From assembly GCF_016811915.1 (NCBI RefSeq), contig NZ_CP069127.1, positions 3,509,001 through 3,573,000 of the forward strand: 64,000 nucleotides of DNA, written 5' to 3'. A model generated the notes under the pieces. That model searched no databases. It was not told the origin of the DNA and worked only from the letters and a program-made list of their open reading frames with translations. Source of the DNA: Brevibacillus choshinensis (GTDB lineage: Bacteria; Bacillota; Bacilli; Brevibacillales; Brevibacillaceae). Positions 25,018 through 36,299 of the stretch are shown here, in pieces. Numbering within the stretch: the stretch's first letter is position 1; every line of letters begins with the position of its first letter. Position numbers and translations under genes: made by a program.

Positions 25018-25048
25018 AAAAAAACACCGCCTCATTTCTTAGGCGGTG
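25018..25048 (-). terminator. Terminator of the fla/che operon
   Basis: An 8-bp stem, CACCGCCT / AGGCGGTG, with loop AAGAAATG is followed by seven T. The stop codon of the last gene (TGA, 25032-25034) is inside the hairpin, so the end of the coding region forms the terminator. Confidence 0.85.
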
Positions 25049-25670
25049 TCGTGATCAATTTGACGATTTCCGTTTCTGTAGCTGGGGTAGAAATTTGATA
25101 GGTACCTACGCGGATCCTATCCAGCTTGTCTTGATTGCGCAGCTCGTCGACAAACTTGTTGTTCGCAGGCAAGATCCCCGCATCCACGAGCTGTTTAGCC
25201 ACTCCCTGGGCTGTTGCTTTATAGGGTACGGTAAAAGACACCTGCTTTTGTATCTCAGGTGCTTGTATCGCCGGCGCGGCTGGACTCTGTACAGGGTGCG
25301 GTGTCGCCGATGCTACCGTCTGCGCAGGCTGCGACGTGCTTACCTCGTTCTCTGCGATCGGCTTCTTTGGAGTCTCCGCTTGCTTGGTGACCGGTGTCTG
25401 TGGCTGTGTGGTCTGCTCCAGGGCAGGTGTCGCTGGCGCTTTGGGCGGCAGGGGGGCAGGCTTTACGTTCACTTTCTTTTCCTGCTGCCACTGCTCGTAT
25501 TCCTCTTTTGTCAAAACGACCATCTGCAGTTCCTGGGCAGCACTCTTGATCTCATCAGAAGATAGAGCCCTCGCTCCAGAAGGCACCTGTTTGCCAAAAA
25601 ACCATCCTGTGATTGAAGCGGCGACGATCAATCCAGCTCCAAAACCTAGCAACAGCTCCCGTTTATGCAT
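25032..25670 (-). CDS. Membrane-anchored protein with MltG-like LysM domain, no catalytic domain
   Basis: The 212-residue product has an N-terminal membrane segment (about residues 6-26), a Lys/Gln region, and a Pro/Ala/Thr/Gln-rich spacer (about 63-137) that should be extracytoplasmic. The C-terminal domain (about 140-210, with VPYKATAQGVAKQLVDAGIL and RVGTYQIS) resembles the LysM-like N-terminal domain of the endolytic transglycosylase MltG. The YceG catalytic domain is absent, so it may bind glycan without cutting it. Start ATG (25668-25670): GAGGT is seven bases upstream and overlaps the preceding gene by 8 bases. It is the last gene of the motility transcription unit. Confidence 0.8.
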   Translation of the reverse strand: MHKRELLLGFGAGLIVAASITGWFFGKQVPSGARALSSDEIKSAAQELQMVVLTKEEYEQWQQEKKVNVKPAPLPPKAPATPALEQTTQPQTPVTKQAETPKKPIAENEVSTSQPAQTVASATPHPVQSPAAPAIQAPEIQKQVSFTVPYKATAQGVAKQLVDAGILPANNKFVDELRNQDKLDRIRVGTYQISTPATETEIVKLITTPPKK

Positions 25671-26178
25671 CTGCCATACCTCTTTCATTCTTTGCCGCCA
25701 ACGCAAAGATCAGGTCGATCTCCCCACGCCCCGCTCCCAGTCGCTTGGCGATTTCATCGAGGGAAAGACCTTCCTGGCGCAATTCAAAGGCTCTACGGTA
25801 CCTCTCACGCAATACCAGCACGTCTTCGTCTTTGGCTACAGGCATCTGGAGAGCTTCCGCTTGCTGTATGCTTTCACGTTCCACTGTTGCCAGCTGTGCA
25901 GCTTTTCCGTGCTCCAATTGCTCCAATCGCTGTCGCAAATGCTTGATTTCCATTACGAGTTCTTCGTGGGACTGGTCGAGCTGTTTTTGCATCCAGTCTT
26001 TTTCTTGCTTTATTTGCCGGCTCATCTGCTGCAGGATTTTTTCCATTTCTGCCTTGTCCGTGGTGCGATGTGTCGGTAACATCGTGCCGGAATCACCAGA
26101 CGGCTTTGTCTTGATGAACAAAGCGACTGCCATGCTGAGGAATCCTACACCGATCAAGCTGAGATACACTACGTCCAT
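25663..26178 (-). CDS. SwrB-like / DUF6115 membrane protein
   Basis: The 171-residue product has one N-terminal membrane segment (about residues 3-22, VVYLSLIGVGFLSMAVALF), a central charged coiled coil (about 40-105), and a C-terminal helix-turn-helix-like segment (QEGLSLDEIAKRLGAGRGEIDLI). This plan and its place downstream of sigD match Bacillus SwrB (YlxL), which promotes flagellar export-gate assembly and swarming, although sequence similarity is weak. Start ATG (26176-26178) follows AAGGTGG. A longer TTG reading lacks a ribosome site. Confidence 0.75.
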   Translation of the reverse strand: MDVVYLSLIGVGFLSMAVALFIKTKPSGDSGTMLPTHRTTDKAEMEKILQQMSRQIKQEKDWMQKQLDQSHEELVMEIKHLRQRLEQLEHGKAAQLATVERESIQQAEALQMPVAKDEDVLVLRERYRRAFELRQEGLSLDEIAKRLGAGRGEIDLIFALAAKNERGMADA

Positions 26179-26216
26179 TTTGGCCACCTTCGCCTCTGGC
26201 ATGTCTTTTTGCAATA

Positions 26217-26558
26217 TTACATGGTTATATTAATATGCCGTCCCCGCAGCGGATCCCTCATCGATACCGGGAGAGAGGCCTTTGCTTCTCCTCCTGCTGC
26301 AAGGTTATCCGATGCAACTGTTCCAGATGATGTTTCTGTCTGTTCCTTATGCTGCTTTTGTTCCCGATCGCGAAGCTTGTTTTTTTCCGCATGCTCAATA
26401 TCCGTTGGTCGTTGACGATTCTGTTGATCATGGAGGGTTCGTTCATCAATTTGCGACTGCTGCTCATGCACGGTACGTTGCTGTTGCTGCTCCTGAATCC
26501 GGCTGACTTCGAGCGTACGCGGCAGTGCTACTTGCAATTCTACCGTCTTCAGACTCAC
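26217..26558 (-). CDS. Gln-rich small protein of the motility operon, unknown function
   Basis: The 113-residue hydrophilic protein has no membrane segment. It has a conserved-looking N terminus (KTVELQVALPRT), a long Gln/Glu/Arg/His-rich middle (about residues 20-75) that is probably helical or disordered, and a short C-terminal motif DPLRGRHINI. As I recall, small proteins with this head and a P-x-[KR]-G-x-x-[IV]-[DN]-[IL] tail occur at the same place in other Firmicutes, but I could not check this. The GTG start (26556-26558) has AGGGAG about 10 bases upstream. It lies between the FapA-like gene and the SwrB-like gene. Confidence 0.7.
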   Translation of the reverse strand: MSLKTVELQVALPRTLEVSRIQEQQQQRTVHEQQSQIDERTLHDQQNRQRPTDIEHAEKNKLRDREQKQHKEQTETSSGTVASDNLAAGGEAKASLPVSMRDPLRGRHINITM

Positions 26559-26598
26559 CCTCGTCCAACTCCCTTGTGCAAGTTGCTACTGATCTTAC

Positions 26599-28014
26599 TT
26601 AGATGAGCGTAGCGGTGGTGACTTCGCCATCCATCACGACGAATCGCGTTCTCGCATACTCATGTTTAATGAAGTGAACAAGCTTGCCAAACGTCATTTT
26701 GATACCCGGATACATGACGTGACTGGCCTCGATTGCAGCTGGACTGTCGCCTTTCAATTCTGCTTCCACATCTTTCTTGCGTGCCTCCAGCGTCTTGCAT
26801 TCTTTTTCCAATACCAATCGTGTATTGGTCAGCTTGATTTGCAGCATTCGCTTATCAGCTGGCAGCTCCCCGCTCGTCTGCAAAATTTGATTCATCACAT
26901 TCAGACCTTGGTCTGTCTTGCGCAAATTTTCGTACACGATTTGCAATTCTTTCTGGATTTGAACCAATTCTTGCCGCAGTTCAGGCTTCACACCTACTTC
27001 TAAAACCGTGGGTGTTGCACTCGTGTTTCCGAATACGCGTGCAGCGATCTTTTCCCCTGCCTGCAGAACCCCGCCAATGATAATGCCTTTCGCACCTTTG
27101 CAAATGATCTGCTTTCCTGCACGAACGGAAGAAAACATGATGCTTTGGGAAACGATTACTTGATTCCCCGCAGTTACGTTTGCATTTTGAATGAAGGAAG
27201 TGCGAATGTTTTGACCCGCTACAATTGAACCTTTGTCTTGAGCAACGATGCCGCTTTTGATTTCGATGGAACCGTCAGCGTGCAGCTCTGCACCCTCGAC
27301 ACTCCCTAATACACGAATGTCTCCGGATGCTTTTACCCGAAAACCGTTCAGAACGTTCCCGCGAATGACCACCGTTCCCACAAAATCGATGTTGCCAACT
27401 CCAAAGTCAACGTCTCCATTCACTTCAAAAACAGGGAAGACGTTCATTTTATCCTGATCCGTGAATGATACTTGTCCATCGATCGCAGCGTAAATCATCG
27501 TTCGCTCCGCATTGTGGACCACGTTTTTACCAGGCTTGATAATGGCTTCTTTGCCGGCCTTGGGAGCGATGGGCTCTCCGGTAACAGCAGTACCCGGTTT
27601 GCCTTGATCGGCAGGAATTCTTCGAGCCAGCAGCTGCCCTTTGGCTACATTGGGAATCGCCGTCACATTGTAATAGTCAACTCGACCATCTTCCAATTCC
27701 TTAGGACCTTCCTCATCTTTTACCGTTTCCAGATACGGATACTCGATGAAGCCGTCCTTTCCTGGCACAGGCTGGATTCCAACGGCGATGGTCGCTTGTG
27801 CATTGGCGTACTTTCTCGGCAGGGCGCACAAGTCTTTCACTACATTGTCCAAGATGCCAAACGTAACCCTCTGTTTATGTAGTTCCTTATAAATGTCCTC
27901 TTCTCTGAGTAAAAGGGCATCGAGATCCTCCTCATCTACTCGAAGTAGGATCCCCGCTTCCAATTTGTCTGCAGTTACTTTTACCTCTAATCGATATTTC
28001 CCGATCCCTTCCAA
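26599..28014 (-). CDS. fapA: FapA family protein (DUF342)
   Basis: The 471-residue protein has an N-terminal alpha/beta region, the DUF342 polymer-like core with repeated short beta segments (about 170-330, for example GNVLNGFRVKASGDIRVLGSVEGAELHADGSIEIKSG broken into its repeats), and a C-terminal coiled coil (about 345-430). In Vibrio FapA affects polar flagellation. In Firmicutes it commonly sits downstream of sigD and its role is unclear. The start is TTG (28012-28014), eight bases after GAGGGGG. It is separated from sigD by 36 bases. Confidence 0.88.
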   Translation of the reverse strand: MEGIGKYRLEVKVTADKLEAGILLRVDEEDLDALLLREEDIYKELHKQRVTFGILDNVVKDLCALPRKYANAQATIAVGIQPVPGKDGFIEYPYLETVKDEEGPKELEDGRVDYYNVTAIPNVAKGQLLARRIPADQGKPGTAVTGEPIAPKAGKEAIIKPGKNVVHNAERTMIYAAIDGQVSFTDQDKMNVFPVFEVNGDVDFGVGNIDFVGTVVIRGNVLNGFRVKASGDIRVLGSVEGAELHADGSIEIKSGIVAQDKGSIVAGQNIRTSFIQNANVTAGNQVIVSQSIMFSSVRAGKQIICKGAKGIIIGGVLQAGEKIAARVFGNTSATPTVLEVGVKPELRQELVQIQKELQIVYENLRKTDQGLNVMNQILQTSGELPADKRMLQIKLTNTRLVLEKECKTLEARKKDVEAELKGDSPAAIEASHVMYPGIKMTFGKLVHFIKHEYARTRFVVMDGEVTTATLI

Positions 28015-28050: not shown

Positions 28051-28839
28051 CTACATTAATTGTGACTTCCATCTGGACAACGCAGAACGAAGTCGGAATA
28101 GAGCCTTGGAATGGAGCTGGGAAATGCGTGAAGGTGACAGGCTCATGATTTCAGCAATTTCGGATAAGGTCATCTCTTCAAAATAAAACAGGGAAACGAC
28201 AAGCCTTTCTTTCTCGGGGAGCTTGTCAATGACGGTGACCAGCACTTCCTTCAGGCTCGAAACCTCTGCCACATTTTCCGGACGCGGGGTCAATTCATCG
28301 ACAATGTACGAATGTCGTGCCGTTTTCTGTTCATCTTCCTCACCGACAGCTTCGTCAATGGATACCATCGTCGCTAGAGAAGTCTCATAAAACACTTGTT
28401 GTAGGTCTTTCTCGCTAATTCCCAAGTACTCCGCAACTTCCAGATCGGTGGGCATTCGCAGCATCTGCTGTTCCAATGTTGTGTATGCTTCTTCGATTTT
28501 TTTGGCCTTGTCACGAACCGTTCGAGGGATCCAGTCATTTTCACGCAAACCGTCGATCATAGCACCACGTATCCGCCACATTGCGTACGTCTCAAACTGC
28601 AATCCGCGTGTGTGGTCAAACTTGGCCAATGCGTCCAGCAGACCAAAGCGGCCATAGCTGATCAAGTCATCCTTGTCCACGTTGGCAGGTAAATTGATCG
28701 CCAAACGGTTGGCCACTTTATCCACAAGCGGCAAGAACCGTGTGATGAGATCGATCTCTGCCTCCCTACTGCCCTCTTGCTTCCACATGACCCATTTATC
28801 GAATTCTTTTGCTTTCTCTTGTATGGTTAGCCGTGCCAC
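28051..28839 (-). CDS. sigD: RNA polymerase sigma factor SigD/FliA (sigma-28)
   Basis: Late-flagellar and motility sigma factor. The 262-residue protein has region 2 (LVDKVANRLAINLP, DDLISYGRFGLLDALAKFD and FETYAMWRIRGAMIDGLR), region 3 (ELTPRPENV before a MxTxxEVAEYLG-like part), and region 4 (LPEKERLVVSLFYFEEMTLSEIA and SRISQLHSKAL). The GTG start (28837-28839) has GGTGAG upstream. It sits near the end of the fla/che operon, a position that in Bacillus makes SigD level sensitive to operon readthrough. Confidence 0.97.
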   Translation of the reverse strand: MARLTIQEKAKEFDKWVMWKQEGSREAEIDLITRFLPLVDKVANRLAINLPANVDKDDLISYGRFGLLDALAKFDHTRGLQFETYAMWRIRGAMIDGLRENDWIPRTVRDKAKKIEEAYTTLEQQMLRMPTDLEVAEYLGISEKDLQQVFYETSLATMVSIDEAVGEEDEQKTARHSYIVDELTPRPENVAEVSSLKEVLVTVIDKLPEKERLVVSLFYFEEMTLSEIAEIMSLSPSRISQLHSKALFRLRSALSRWKSQLM

Positions 28840-28856
28840 GAATTACTCACCAGCCT

Positions 28857-29243
28857 TTACTCATCTGTTAAGCGCCTAACGACCTCTGCAACAGTGGTTG
28901 GATCTTCAATCAGACGTATTCTCTCCATTTGGGAAATAGAGAGAGGAGAGAATGCTTCCTCCACCTCGCCCTCCTCTACCTGCTTGTCCTCTTTATCCTT
29001 ATCAGGAGAAGCCTGCCCATCTTTGCGGGAAGCCTCCCCTTCTTTTGCTAAAGGAAGCGATGGACTTTGTGTCACCTTGGTGAGAACCCAACGGATAGGA
29101 AAAGCGGCGAGGAAAAACACCAGGAAAGCGACGCCTGCTCGCTCGAGTGAAACAAGCCAGACGTTGCTCGCCAAAGCCGTCGCCAGTGTGACGACAAAAG
29201 CGAGAAGTCCCAAGCCAGAATTGATCCAAATGGTACCCATCAT
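28857..29243 (-). CDS. Two-span membrane protein between cheD and sigD, unknown function
   Basis: The 128-residue product has two hydrophobic segments (about residues 8-29 and 35-53), a positively and negatively charged linker (about 65-95, rich in Lys, Asp and Glu) and a C-terminal amphipathic helix (SQMERIRLIEDPTTVAEVVRRLTDE broken across two turns). I do not recognise the family. It starts two bases after the cheD stop with AAGGA upstream; a second ATG directly follows the first. Being co-transcribed with cheD and sigD suggests a motility role. This is inference from position only. Confidence 0.8.
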   Translation of the reverse strand: MMGTIWINSGLGLLAFVVTLATALASNVWLVSLERAGVAFLVFFLAAFPIRWVLTKVTQSPSLPLAKEGEASRKDGQASPDKDKEDKQVEEGEVEEAFSPLSISQMERIRLIEDPTTVAEVVRRLTDE

Positions 29244-34075: not shown

Positions 34076-34939
34076 TTATCGAATGAAGTTTTTCAGCCTC
34101 GTCAGGAATCCTTTGAGACCAATCGCCGGGATATCTGTTTTTGTGGAATTCTCCAAGTACCGACCAACCAAATTCCGAATGCTCCGTGACGCAAGCGATT
34201 GCGGGTAGGTAAGCAGGAAGGGTCTCTGCTGTTTCACTGCTTTGGTAACATGAGTATCATCGGATACGAATCCTAACGAGAGGATCTCCATGTTCAGGAA
34301 ACGTTTTGCCACCATTGCCAGCTTGTCAGCAGTCATTTTCCCTTCTCTCTCAGAAGTCGCTCGGTTGATGACGAGTCGAATCTTTACAGCGGGGTTTCGG
34401 GAGTGCAGCATTTTGATCACTGCGTACGCATCGGTAATCGCAGGTGGTTCAGGTGTTGTCACGACGATCACTTCGTCCGAGGACAACATGAAGTGCAACG
34501 ATTCTTTGGACAAACCCGCTCCAGTGTCAAAAATGATTGTATCCGCATACCCTTGCAGTGGATCCAGCTTGGAAAACAAGAGATCCAGCTTGTCGTCATC
34601 CAGTTGCATGATCTGCGTAAACCCCGAACCTCCCGCGATGAATTCCAGCTGTCCGGGTCCTTGTTCCATGATGTCCCACACGGTCGTTTCCGGTTCCAAC
34701 AGATGGAACAAGTGCTTTTTGGGGGTAATCCCCATCAAGACATCCAGGTTGGCAAGTCCGAGATCAACGTCGAACAGGACTGCTTTATTTCCTTTTTCAA
34801 TCAACCCGAGACCAAAGTTCAGGCTGAAGTTGGATTTCCCTACCCCACCCTTTCCGCTGGTCACGGTCACAAGTTTTGTCGATCGTTTCTGGGAGCTCTG
34901 AGAAATACGTTGGCGGAGTTGTTCGGCTTGATCACGCAT
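34076..34939 (-). CDS. flhG: Flagellum site-determining ATPase FlhG (MinD-like)
   Basis: ParA/MinD-family ATPase that governs flagellar number and location and works with FlhF. The 287-residue protein has the deviant Walker A TSGKGGVGKSN (27-37), VDLGLANLD (Walker A prime) and a C-terminal amphipathic helix region of the membrane-targeting type. The N-terminal DQAEQLRQ motif is the FlhF-activating segment. It begins four bases after the flhF stop. Confidence 0.95.
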   Translation of the reverse strand: MRDQAEQLRQRISQSSQKRSTKLVTVTSGKGGVGKSNFSLNFGLGLIEKGNKAVLFDVDLGLANLDVLMGITPKKHLFHLLEPETTVWDIMEQGPGQLEFIAGGSGFTQIMQLDDDKLDLLFSKLDPLQGYADTIIFDTGAGLSKESLHFMLSSDEVIVVTTPEPPAITDAYAVIKMLHSRNPAVKIRLVINRATSEREGKMTADKLAMVAKRFLNMEILSLGFVSDDTHVTKAVKQQRPFLLTYPQSLASRSIRNLVGRYLENSTKTDIPAIGLKGFLTRLKNFIR

Positions 34940-34943
34940 TCCT

Positions 34944-36299
34944 TCAGTCTCCCACTACCATCGACGATATGAGCACGGGAGTCGCCACTACGATGTCATC
35001 CGGAACATTTTGACCGGTCGTTATATAGGAAAGGGATAGCTTCATTTCCTCAGCGACGTTCAGGATGGTCCCGTAGCTCTGTGTCTCGTCCGCCTTTGTG
35101 AAGATCACTTGCTTGACAGGTACTTCCGAAAAGTTTTGAATGATGGCTTTCATGTCGCTGTACTTGGAAGTCAAGCTGAGCACCAAGTAGTTGACGCTGT
35201 TTGATCCGTGTTCCACCAATTCCCGAATCCCTTGTACGTACTCATCATTTCGGAAATTGCGTCCAGCCGTGTCGACAAAAATCAAATCGCAGTCACTCAG
35301 TCTTTCCATCGCAGTCAGCATTTCCTTAGGCTGAAAGACGACTTCCATAGGAACATTGAGGATGTTCGCGTACGTTTTCAATTGCTCAACAGCAGCCATT
35401 CGATACGTATCCGCAGTAATGAAGCCAATCTTTCTTTTATCCTTCAGCATGCTGTTTGCTGCCATTTTGGCGATCGTAGTGGTTTTTCCCACCCCTGTTG
35501 GACCAAAGAAGAAAGCATAGTGTACAGAGCGCTCCAGCTTTACTGGGGTATGCACCTTGGAAGCGAGCATCTCCGTCACGATTTTCCTGCAAGCGTCTCG
35601 CGCTTCATCGAATTGCCACTCATGACCAGGAGTTGTCTGTTCCATCAGCTGTTTCAGGATTTCTGCGATAACTTCCTCGGATACGCCCTGCTCCACTAGA
35701 CGGGTACGGATCTCTTGGATGGCGACTGGAAGCTGGTGGTTCAGATCGTTGACGAGCAGCTTTTGGAACATTTGCCTCATGCCTCTCACTTCGTTCGCCA
35801 GCTCGTCCGACCCAGCTGCTGCAGCCGTCAAGTGATCCTGCCTGTTCGTGGACGGAAGCGGTTTTGATGATGGCACCGTGGCAGGCTCCTCTCTCAGCGC
35901 TTCGGCAAACTCCGCTGCGCGAGGATCCCCCTTCGATTCCTCTGCGGCTAAAGTCACTCCGGGGTTCCGCTCCTGTACGGCGACCGCTCCCCCCTCCACT
36001 GACTCCTGCTGCAAAGCTGCAGCCTTTCGATACGCCTGTTTTGCCGTATACGTTCCGGCTTGTGGTCGAGTGATAGCGTCCATCTGTCGATTCTTACTGG
36101 GACCCTGAGTTTTTTCATTCTCAGATGCCTTCTCGTCTACTGCTGCAATCACTTCAATTCGCATCTTGCCGAACATTCCAAACAGTCCGCCGGTTTTCAC
36201 CTGTTTCGAGTTTAAAATGACGGCATCCTTTCCCAAATCCACTCTGATCTTGTCCAGCGCCTCTGGCATCGAATCGACTATGTAACGTTTCACTCTCAC
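34944..36299 (-). CDS. flhF: Flagellar SRP-type GTPase FlhF
   Basis: SRP-family GTPase that sets flagellar placement. The 451-residue protein has a basic N-terminal B domain with a central acidic and Gln-rich disordered part (about 55-160), an N domain and the G domain with [10 protein letters not shown] (266-275), DTAGRNFRN and TKADETQSYG. The GTG start overlaps the flhA stop by 4 bases (GTGA). Confidence 0.96.
   Translation of the reverse strand: MRVKRYIVDSMPEALDKIRVDLGKDAVILNSKQVKTGGLFGMFGKMRIEVIAAVDEKASENEKTQGPSKNRQMDAITRPQAGTYTAKQAYRKAAALQQESVEGGAVAVQERNPGVTLAAEESKGDPRAAEFAEALREEPATVPSSKPLPSTNRQDHLTAAAAGSDELANEVRGMRQMFQKLLVNDLNHQLPVAIQEIRTRLVEQGVSEEVIAEILKQLMEQTTPGHEWQFDEARDACRKIVTEMLASKVHTPVKLERSVHYAFFFGPTGVGKTTTIAKMAANSMLKDKRKIGFITADTYRMAAVEQLKTYANILNVPMEVVFQPKEMLTAMERLSDCDLIFVDTAGRNFRNDEYVQGIRELVEHGSNSVNYLVLSLTSKYSDMKAIIQNFSEVPVKQVIFTKADETQSYGTILNVAEEMKLSLSYITTGQNVPDDIVVATPVLISSMVVGD

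Follow-up and report, generated by a model that had tools for sequence, protein, structure and literature searches.

A gene set between sigD and rpsB of Brevibacillus choshinensis: a candidate flagellar basal-body licensing and anchoring module of the Bacillota

Genes between sigD and rpsB

The analyzed DNA, here called the window, is a stretch of 64,000 nucleotides from the 6.17-Mb genome of Brevibacillus choshinensis (NCBI RefSeq assembly GCF_016811915.1, contig NZ_CP069127.1; G000:C1:3509001-3573000 in our genome numbering), and its flagellar operon ends in four genes that lie between sigD and rpsB. The four open reading frames (ORFs) were confirmed at positions 25032-28014 on the minus strand, where they encode, from 5' to 3', the flagellar assembly protein FapA, a small glutamine-rich protein which we call Q, a protein similar to SwrB of Bacillus subtilis and to the gamma-proteobacterial FipA, and a membrane-anchored protein with an MltG-type LysM-like domain, which we call mltGn. 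We regard them as a phylum-wide flagellar assembly module, with members mostly of known or named families and with a testable link to FipA and FlhF. Coordinates without a genome or locus label refer to the window, and the features given with them lie on the minus strand.

The intergenic gaps measure 36 bp between sigD and fapA, 40 bp between fapA and Q, and 38 bp between Q and the swrB-like gene. The frames of the last two genes share 8 bp when their starts are set at ATG 26178 and ATG 25670, which were chosen over the TTG codons at 26214 and 25706 because aligned homologues favor them. A terminator-like hairpin with a 10-pair stem (25023-25050) closes the module, overlapping the mltGn stop codon, and 5' of rpsB lies a promoter-like site (24994-24966). 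Both calls are pattern matches, the scanned region holding 9 terminator-like sites versus 5.3 in shuffles and 5 promoter-like sites versus 4.1. These ORFs, gaps, overlap, and hairpin agree with the initial annotation, which described a tightly spaced or overlapping set sharing one terminator. Its term "uncharacterised" is apt only in part, FapA and SwrB having published relatives.

Protein families and predicted structures

FapA (26599-28014; 471 residues, TTG start) consists of an N-terminal domain, matching PF20250 at residues 10 to 186 (E value of 3.9e-42), and a beta-solenoid domain, matching PF03961 at residues 194 to 465 (E value of 4.3e-74). Both matches are far over the cut-off, and judged by them the window protein is a full-length member of the family. 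The FapA of Vibrio belongs to the same family, and an external LysM-like membrane protein accompanies both, by interaction in Vibrio and by gene neighborhood in the window. The PDB sequence search with FapA gave one match with an E value of 0.096. One member genome of the window's family has fapA as two overlapping frames (locus L011, G034:C1:1310124-1311505), indicating a frameshift that is either real or due to sequencing.

The SwrB-like/FipA-like protein (DUF6115/DUF2802; 25663-26178) has 171 residues from its ATG, the ORF opening at TTG 26214, and combines one N-terminal hydrophobic stretch (hydropathy peak of 2.33 at residue 4) with a helix-turn-helix (HTH)-like C-terminus. It matches DUF6115 (Pfam ID PF19610) with 30.7 bits, above the cut-off of 27. 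Among the aligned SwrB-like members, 41 of 44 match PF19610 and 37 of 44 match DUF2802 (Pfam ID PF10975) at an E value of <=0.01, and a fragment from another genome (L024:6055-6249) passes the DUF2802 cut-off with 34.4 versus 33.5 bits. With SwrB of B. subtilis, the window protein has in common the place between sigD and rpsB, the N-terminal membrane anchor, and the DUF6115 match. In three loci of one family that we regard as Bacillus-like (L200, L201, and L212; family f15), the swrB-like ORFs are found by the same hidden Markov model as the window's ORF. The order in these loci is sigD-swrB-rpsB; fapA, Q, mltGn, and a FlgV-like gene are missing, whereas the window has all of them.

FipA, a gamma-proteobacterial DUF2802 membrane protein, is a binding partner of FlhF, and normal polar flagella depend on it (PMC11620751). 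Its residues G110, E126, and L129 are invariant, and FlhF binding is lost in the G110A and L129A variants and kept in E126A (PMC11620751). The window protein carries G149, E165, and L168 (25711-25770; numbering of the TTG-start ORF) with the same spacing. Among 189 SwrB-like sequences, the pattern G-x15-E-x2-L retains the glycine in all 189, the glutamate in 187, and the leucine in 167, the triad being assigned solely by spacing to the published FipA residues (PMC11620751). FipA and the SwrB-like protein also have in common one membrane stretch with a predicted cytoplasmic domain and the place after the flhF-flhG-fliA-che genes. As for FipA, both FlhF and FlhG are encoded, in the window's genome within the same operon. 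The DUF2802 profiles, the residue spacing, and the operon place together suggest that SwrB is a diverged relative of FipA.

In genome G085, a 649-residue ORF (L024:4097-6249), which has no Pfam match at an E value of <=0.001, lies between Q and a short DUF2802/DUF6115 swrB-like piece, and may be an insertion in the swrB-like protein or a large extension of it.

The last gene, mltGn (25032-25670; 212 residues from the ATG, the ORF opening at TTG 25706), encodes an N-terminal membrane anchor, a proline-rich linker (10.4% Pro in the whole protein), and a LysM-like domain (25041-25253) that was located by superposition of the predicted structure. The hydrophobic stretch begins near residue 6, and all of the remaining sequence lies beyond it. 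The match to the YceG profile covers only positions 1 to 64 of 275 and scores 20.5 bits, below the cut-off of 32.4; it stops three residues before the C-terminus, so that the catalytic part is absent. The YceG family is matched by 42 of the 43 aligned mltGn members at an E value of <=0.01, and the profile match to Listeria Lmo1499 has an E value of 3.5e-9. The AlphaFold model is confident only at about residues 140 to 210, with a predicted local distance difference test (pLDDT) score of 93 to 97 in this block, which superposes on Listeria Lmo1499 (PDB ID 4iiw; Z-score of 11.2, 1.7 Å over 70 residues) and on MltG (PDB ID 8yoa; Z-score of 8.4). VIA-align also returned weak rows for type III secretion system rings (Z-scores of 2.3 to 3.1). 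Since the YceG match is N-terminal only and the model superposes on both structures, mltGn is, by its sequence and predicted fold, the LysM-like domain of MltG on a proline-rich stalk without the enzyme. In the MltG/YceG endolytic transglycosylase, the N-terminal LysM-like domain likewise follows a membrane anchor, but there the catalytic part is present. The genome also encodes a complete MltG at another place (G000:C1:2010095).

HubP/FimV differs from mltGn, which has an MltG-type domain, almost no cytoplasmic part, no acidic repeats or long acidic cytoplasmic region, and no FimV or TPR domain in the Pfam search. For these reasons, mltGn would at most work like HubP.

Q (26217-26558; 113 residues, GTG start, 13.3% Gln) is predicted to form a helix at its N-terminus, where an ELQ[VI]AxP[RK]-like motif lies, and ends in a C-terminal tail. 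The window protein matches no Pfam or NCBIfam family, and no consistent family emerged among 57 relatives, which hit five Pfam and two NCBIfam families with one member each. The PDB sequence search with Q gave no match, and neither Q nor mltGn matches PHROGs at an E value of <=0.01. Both ends of Q are conserved, with the N-terminal consensus MSLKxVELQVALPRT and the C-terminal consensus HPYKGxxID on either side of a variable linker. The AlphaFold model, which is of low confidence (mean pLDDT of 68.7, predicted template modeling score of 0.31), shows a helix at residues 3 to 78, pLDDT values of <50 at 78 to 95, and strands at 98 to 101 and 108 to 111.

The tail of Q (26220-26252) matches the pattern P-x2-G-x2-[ILVM]-[DN]-[ILVFM], which we call YjfB-type because the small motility protein YjfB (Pfam ID PF14070) ends in the common form P-x2-G-x2-[IL]-D-[IV]. 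The pattern is found in 123 of 176 Q ORFs and 22 of 30 YjfB proteins, and in none of 12,052 other ORFs of flagellar loci. The profile alignment of Q and YjfB covers the 14 columns of this tail only (probability of 33%, E value of 4.5e-4). None of the 57 Q members matches PF14070 at an E value of <=0.01, and the two are separate genes: in the 31 genomes with both, they lie in separate places (judged by eye, the YjfB matches of G513 and G534 being below the family cut-off). Judging from these sequence comparisons, the two proteins may be distantly related, or they may merely carry a common docking tail. The window's genome also encodes a YjfB (G000:C1:5670548-5670703, locus L217), the final residues of which, HPTLGKQIDISV, are very similar to the consensus of the Q tail.

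Several other identities were considered for Q. That it is itself YjfB is ruled out, the tail being all that the two have in common and the profile match being absent. It is not the anti-sigma factor FlgM either, the sole FlgM profile match of the genome lying elsewhere (G000:C1:5688036). No fusion of Q to a neighbor was seen in the eight genomes that were examined for having long open frames around Q (G458, G354, G467, G334, G287, G080, G188, and G388).

Distribution and conserved order

Q is found in all 39 genomes of the window's family, in 100 of 250 genomes of the class, and in 129 of 299 of the phylum, the weakest of these 129 matches possibly including false ones. One weak match (G458, E value of 1.4e-5) is probably not Q, since no Q ORF passed the threshold in L187. 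The presence of Q throughout the family and its conservation in other families of the phylum rule out a chance ORF or repeat artifact. FlhA occurs in 182 of the 250 class genomes, and all 100 Q-bearing class genomes are FlhA positive. A FapA match is found in 122 of the 250 (E value of <=1e-10, longer FapA-domain proteins away from sigD being counted too).

We collected 177 loci that span sigD to rpsB, three of them second readings of the same genome. They hold the swrB-like gene in 174 cases, Q in 161, fapA in 136, and mltGn in 92, and the same order recurs; because the loci were selected by FapA, Q, or FlhA matches, these counts are not unbiased frequencies. mltGn is linked with fapA in 91 of the 92 spanning loci that have it, namely in all 51 from the best 80 relatives described below and in 40 of the 41 others, the exception being L086, with a FapA elsewhere in the genome. 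Among 57 fetched loci, of which 54 were selected through a FapA match and three through a Q match, sigD lies beside fapA in 50 (exceptions L028, L052, and L054-L058). A further 20 Q loci were chosen since Q lies away from the FapA match or no such FapA is known; here, Q directly follows sigD in all 20, and the swrB-like gene is present in 19.

The best 80 of 154 Q relatives come from Brevibacillus, which gives the top matches to the window's Q, and from Paenibacillus, Bacillus, Cytobacillus, Tumebacillus, and others, and their loci span sigD to rpsB in 79 cases, with L117 starting at a contig edge. Q and the swrB-like gene occur in every one of the 79, fapA in 70, and mltGn in 51. Within these best 80, all picked for Q, mltGn is present in 19 of 19 Brevibacillus and 32 of 33 Paenibacillus loci. 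Further away, 20 loci from other families of the phylum, taken from the 129 Q matches, have sigD upstream in every case, fapA in 18, the swrB-like gene in 18, and mltGn in 11. The initial annotation had staked its proposal on a gene set and order kept beyond close relatives, and both do reach other families of the phylum.

In three loci (L081, L181, and L186), Q lies beside sigD or sigD-fapA, and no swrB-like gene was found before rpsB; Q therefore does not strictly need the swrB-like gene.

Losses and co-variation

Sixteen stretches were taken from FlhA-positive genomes without a Q match. Eleven of them hold sigD, all 11 with the swrB-like gene and none with Q, and the three sigD-swrB-rpsB loci described above are among these 11. 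It appears that some Bacillus-like relatives lost most of the four genes; flgV, too, is reported as absent from B. subtilis (PMC11607428). A simple story of loss is contradicted by several Bacillus-titled records that retain Q and often also fapA (e.g., L127, L133, and L141), and the record titled Bacillus subtilis DE0224 (L120) reads sigD-Q-swrB-rpsB. In the record titled Pseudomonas sp. ISL-84 (L159), Q lies in a Bacillaceae-type locus. The strains of L120 and L159 may be misidentified in their titles.

On a FastTree phylogeny of 95 deduplicated loci, built from rpsB, tsf, and pyrH, the state changes number 2 for the swrB-like gene, 10 each for fapA and Q, 11 for mltGn, and 15 for FlgV. Among the 98 spanning loci beyond the 79 mentioned for the best 80 of 154 relatives, 23 have Q without fapA and 7 have fapA without Q.

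Possible function of the module

A role in flagellar biology, as proposed by the initial annotation, is well supported by the place in the fla/che operon, by the FlhA genes of all Q-bearing class genomes, and by the relatives of the third protein, SwrB and FipA, which act in flagellar assembly (PMC4526659, PMC11620751). SwrB is described to make basal bodies export competent via FliP and to activate FliP-dependent export (PMC4526659). In Vibrio vulnificus, FapA is stated to be recruited by HubP, the LysM-like domain of which lies outside the membrane, and FimV is described to bind peptidoglycan with its LysM domain (PMC12918733).

The best reading, by analogy, is that the four genes are the distal part of a set for licensing and anchoring the flagellar basal body, together with FlhF/FlhG, SigD, and FlgV of the operon, and that this set resembles the proteobacterial FipA-FapA-HubP set; we give it a probability of about 50%. 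It builds on what is directly observed: the protein families, the domain architecture, the conserved order, the conserved residues, and the tie to flagellated genomes. The SwrB/FipA-like protein would be anchored in the membrane and expose its HTH-like domain to the cytoplasm, where it would touch FlhF via the G-E-L face and bring the nascent basal body into an export-competent state. FapA would serve as a cytoplasmic beta-solenoid scaffold at the basal-body site, and mltGn might use its external LysM-like domain to tie this site to peptidoglycan, as the LysM-bearing HubP recruits FapA. Q could act as a short two-ended adaptor, with a helix at one end and the YjfB-type tail at the other, docking on a core partner that is present even without FapA.

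Several points weigh against the licensing and anchoring reading. Its protein-protein contacts, membrane topologies, and mechanistic steps are all ones that we infer, and peptidoglycan binding by the MltG-type domain of mltGn is assumed. Q is lacking in 82 of the 182 FlhA-positive class genomes and is therefore not essential to flagella in general, and locus L205 (genome G071, outside the spanning set) has the swrB-like gene and mltGn in a genome with no FapA match. As for the FipA link, the window protein scores 24.3 bits against DUF2802, below the cut-off of 33.5, and loci L200, L201, and L212 encode SwrB-like proteins without a DUF2802 match at an E value of <=0.01. Brevibacillus is presumably peritrichous. 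The hosts of FipA are polar flagellates, and FipA is stated to be absent from peritrichous Bacillus and tied to polar flagellation (PMC11620751). Once corrected for the tree, co-occurrence did not reach significance for any of the five pairs tested, with too few informative independent pairs; for mltGn with fapA, 2.5 pairs went the same way, 0 the other way, and 3.5 showed no difference (median p of 0.5). The partial distance correlations of Q are weak, with r values of 0.23 for FlgV, 0.20 for CheD, 0.15 for the SwrB-like protein, 0.14 for SigD, 0.13 for FapA, 0.01 for CheC, and 0.00 for mltGn. With Q, FapA, and mltGn varying independently, the distance correlations weak, and the co-occurrence not significant, the data do not demonstrate that the four proteins form one complex, as the initial annotation thought possible.

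The same data bear on a simpler explanation, in which the genes are mere neighbors, each serving flagella separately (the SwrB-like protein in export, FapA in something else) and forming no joint complex, held together by riding the sigD end of a long motility operon before rpsB. The independent changes of Q, FapA, mltGn, and FlgV on the tree, the loci with only one of Q and fapA, and the weak distance correlations all speak for it. We nevertheless think it unlikely, since other families of the phylum retain the order, the last two frames of the window's set overlap, mltGn without FapA was found in one genome only, and the proteobacterial FapA and FipA are tied to the polar FlhF/HubP machinery (PMC11620751, PMC12918733). 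It is less probable still that the set tunes SigD, with Q as a sigma-28 cofactor or antagonist and the SwrB-like protein as a membrane-tethered HTH regulator, so that late expression tracks the state of the basal body. Here, sigD is indeed the most constant neighbor of Q, directly preceding it in the 20 loci described above, and the C-terminus of the SwrB-like protein weakly matches HTH models of the sigma-70 region 4 type; however, the known SigD antagonist FlgM (PMC4526659) is encoded elsewhere, the known effect of SwrB is on export through FliP (PMC4526659), and the corresponding region of FipA serves FlhF (PMC11620751).

The initial annotation named flagellar placement, export-gate assembly, and wall passage as possible tasks. 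Placement and export-gate activation fit the family links better than wall passage, because the MltG-like protein lacks the catalytic part. For wall passage, mltGn would bind peptidoglycan or recruit a lytic enzyme, opening the wall for the rod, which its MltG-type LysM-like domain on a proline-rich stalk behind a membrane anchor would allow and for which the full MltG encoded elsewhere would be a possible partner. Apart from the missing catalytic domain, there are loci with the other three genes but no mltGn (e.g., L015-L017 and L019-L022), and we consider this task very improbable.

Relation to published work

A paper from 2024 (PMC11607428) already describes a neighborhood of sigma28, FapA, "YjfB," "TM+HTH," and FlgV, which is the same operon as the window's. 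By position, its "YjfB" is most likely Q and its "TM+HTH" most likely the SwrB-like protein. Since most of the neighborhood is described there, the neighborhood itself is not new. The text of that paper makes no mention of SwrB, MltG, or LysM, and our additions are the FipA link, the MltG-LysM gene, the tail common to Q and YjfB, the distribution, and the losses. In the open-access literature, as far as its text was covered, we found no description of mltGn or of the shared tail, no paper linking MltG, LysM, and flagella, and no paper linking SwrB with FipA in its main text. PMC11620751 is the sole paper found that names both SwrB and FipA, and their similarity may have been raised there already.

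The module would bear on the control of flagellar number and place in Gram-positive bacteria and on the switching of the export gate by SwrB. If SwrB and FipA are one family, binding of SwrB to FlhF is a direct prediction, involving residues G149 and L168 and their counterparts in B. subtilis SwrB, and the tail of Q and YjfB offers a concrete bait for a common partner. More tentatively, and with more doubt than confidence, we suggest that the Bacillota had an ancestral landmark and licensing system partly homologous to that of gamma-proteobacteria, in which SwrB/FipA would be one family acting on FlhF, FapA a scaffold, mltGn a wall anchor in the role of HubP, and Q and YjfB adaptors docking by their tails. 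B. subtilis, the Gram-positive model, would have kept only SwrB and YjfB, and most of the system would therefore have stayed out of sight. The distribution suggests that the usual B. subtilis model may be a reduced case.

Other genes of the operon

In the window, the Pfam order of the flagellar operon starts with Bac_export_1, FlhB, FlhA, an SRP54-type GTPase, and a MinD/ParA-type ATPase and continues with CheB, CheA, CheW, CheC, CheD, a 128-residue protein, and SigD; the four genes follow 3' of SigD, and then rpsB, tsf, and pyrH. The GTPase (34944-36299; PF00448, E value of 3.4e-41), the expected partner of the FipA-like protein, is named FlhF by its position, as is FlhG for the ATPase (34076-34939; PF10609 and PF01656). 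The sigD gene (28051-28839) encodes a FliA/WhiG-type sigma factor, with a match to TIGR02479 above the cut-off (E value of 9.7e-79). The Rfam scan of the window gave no family at threshold.

The 128-residue protein between cheD and sigD (28857-29243) matches no Pfam family and has two hydrophobic stretches (judged by eye), with an acidic residue and an arginine at the second one and a polar tail. It fits FlgV (Type-1) by the features described in PMC11607428, and ORFs of the same family lie 5' of sigD in 119 of the 177 loci.

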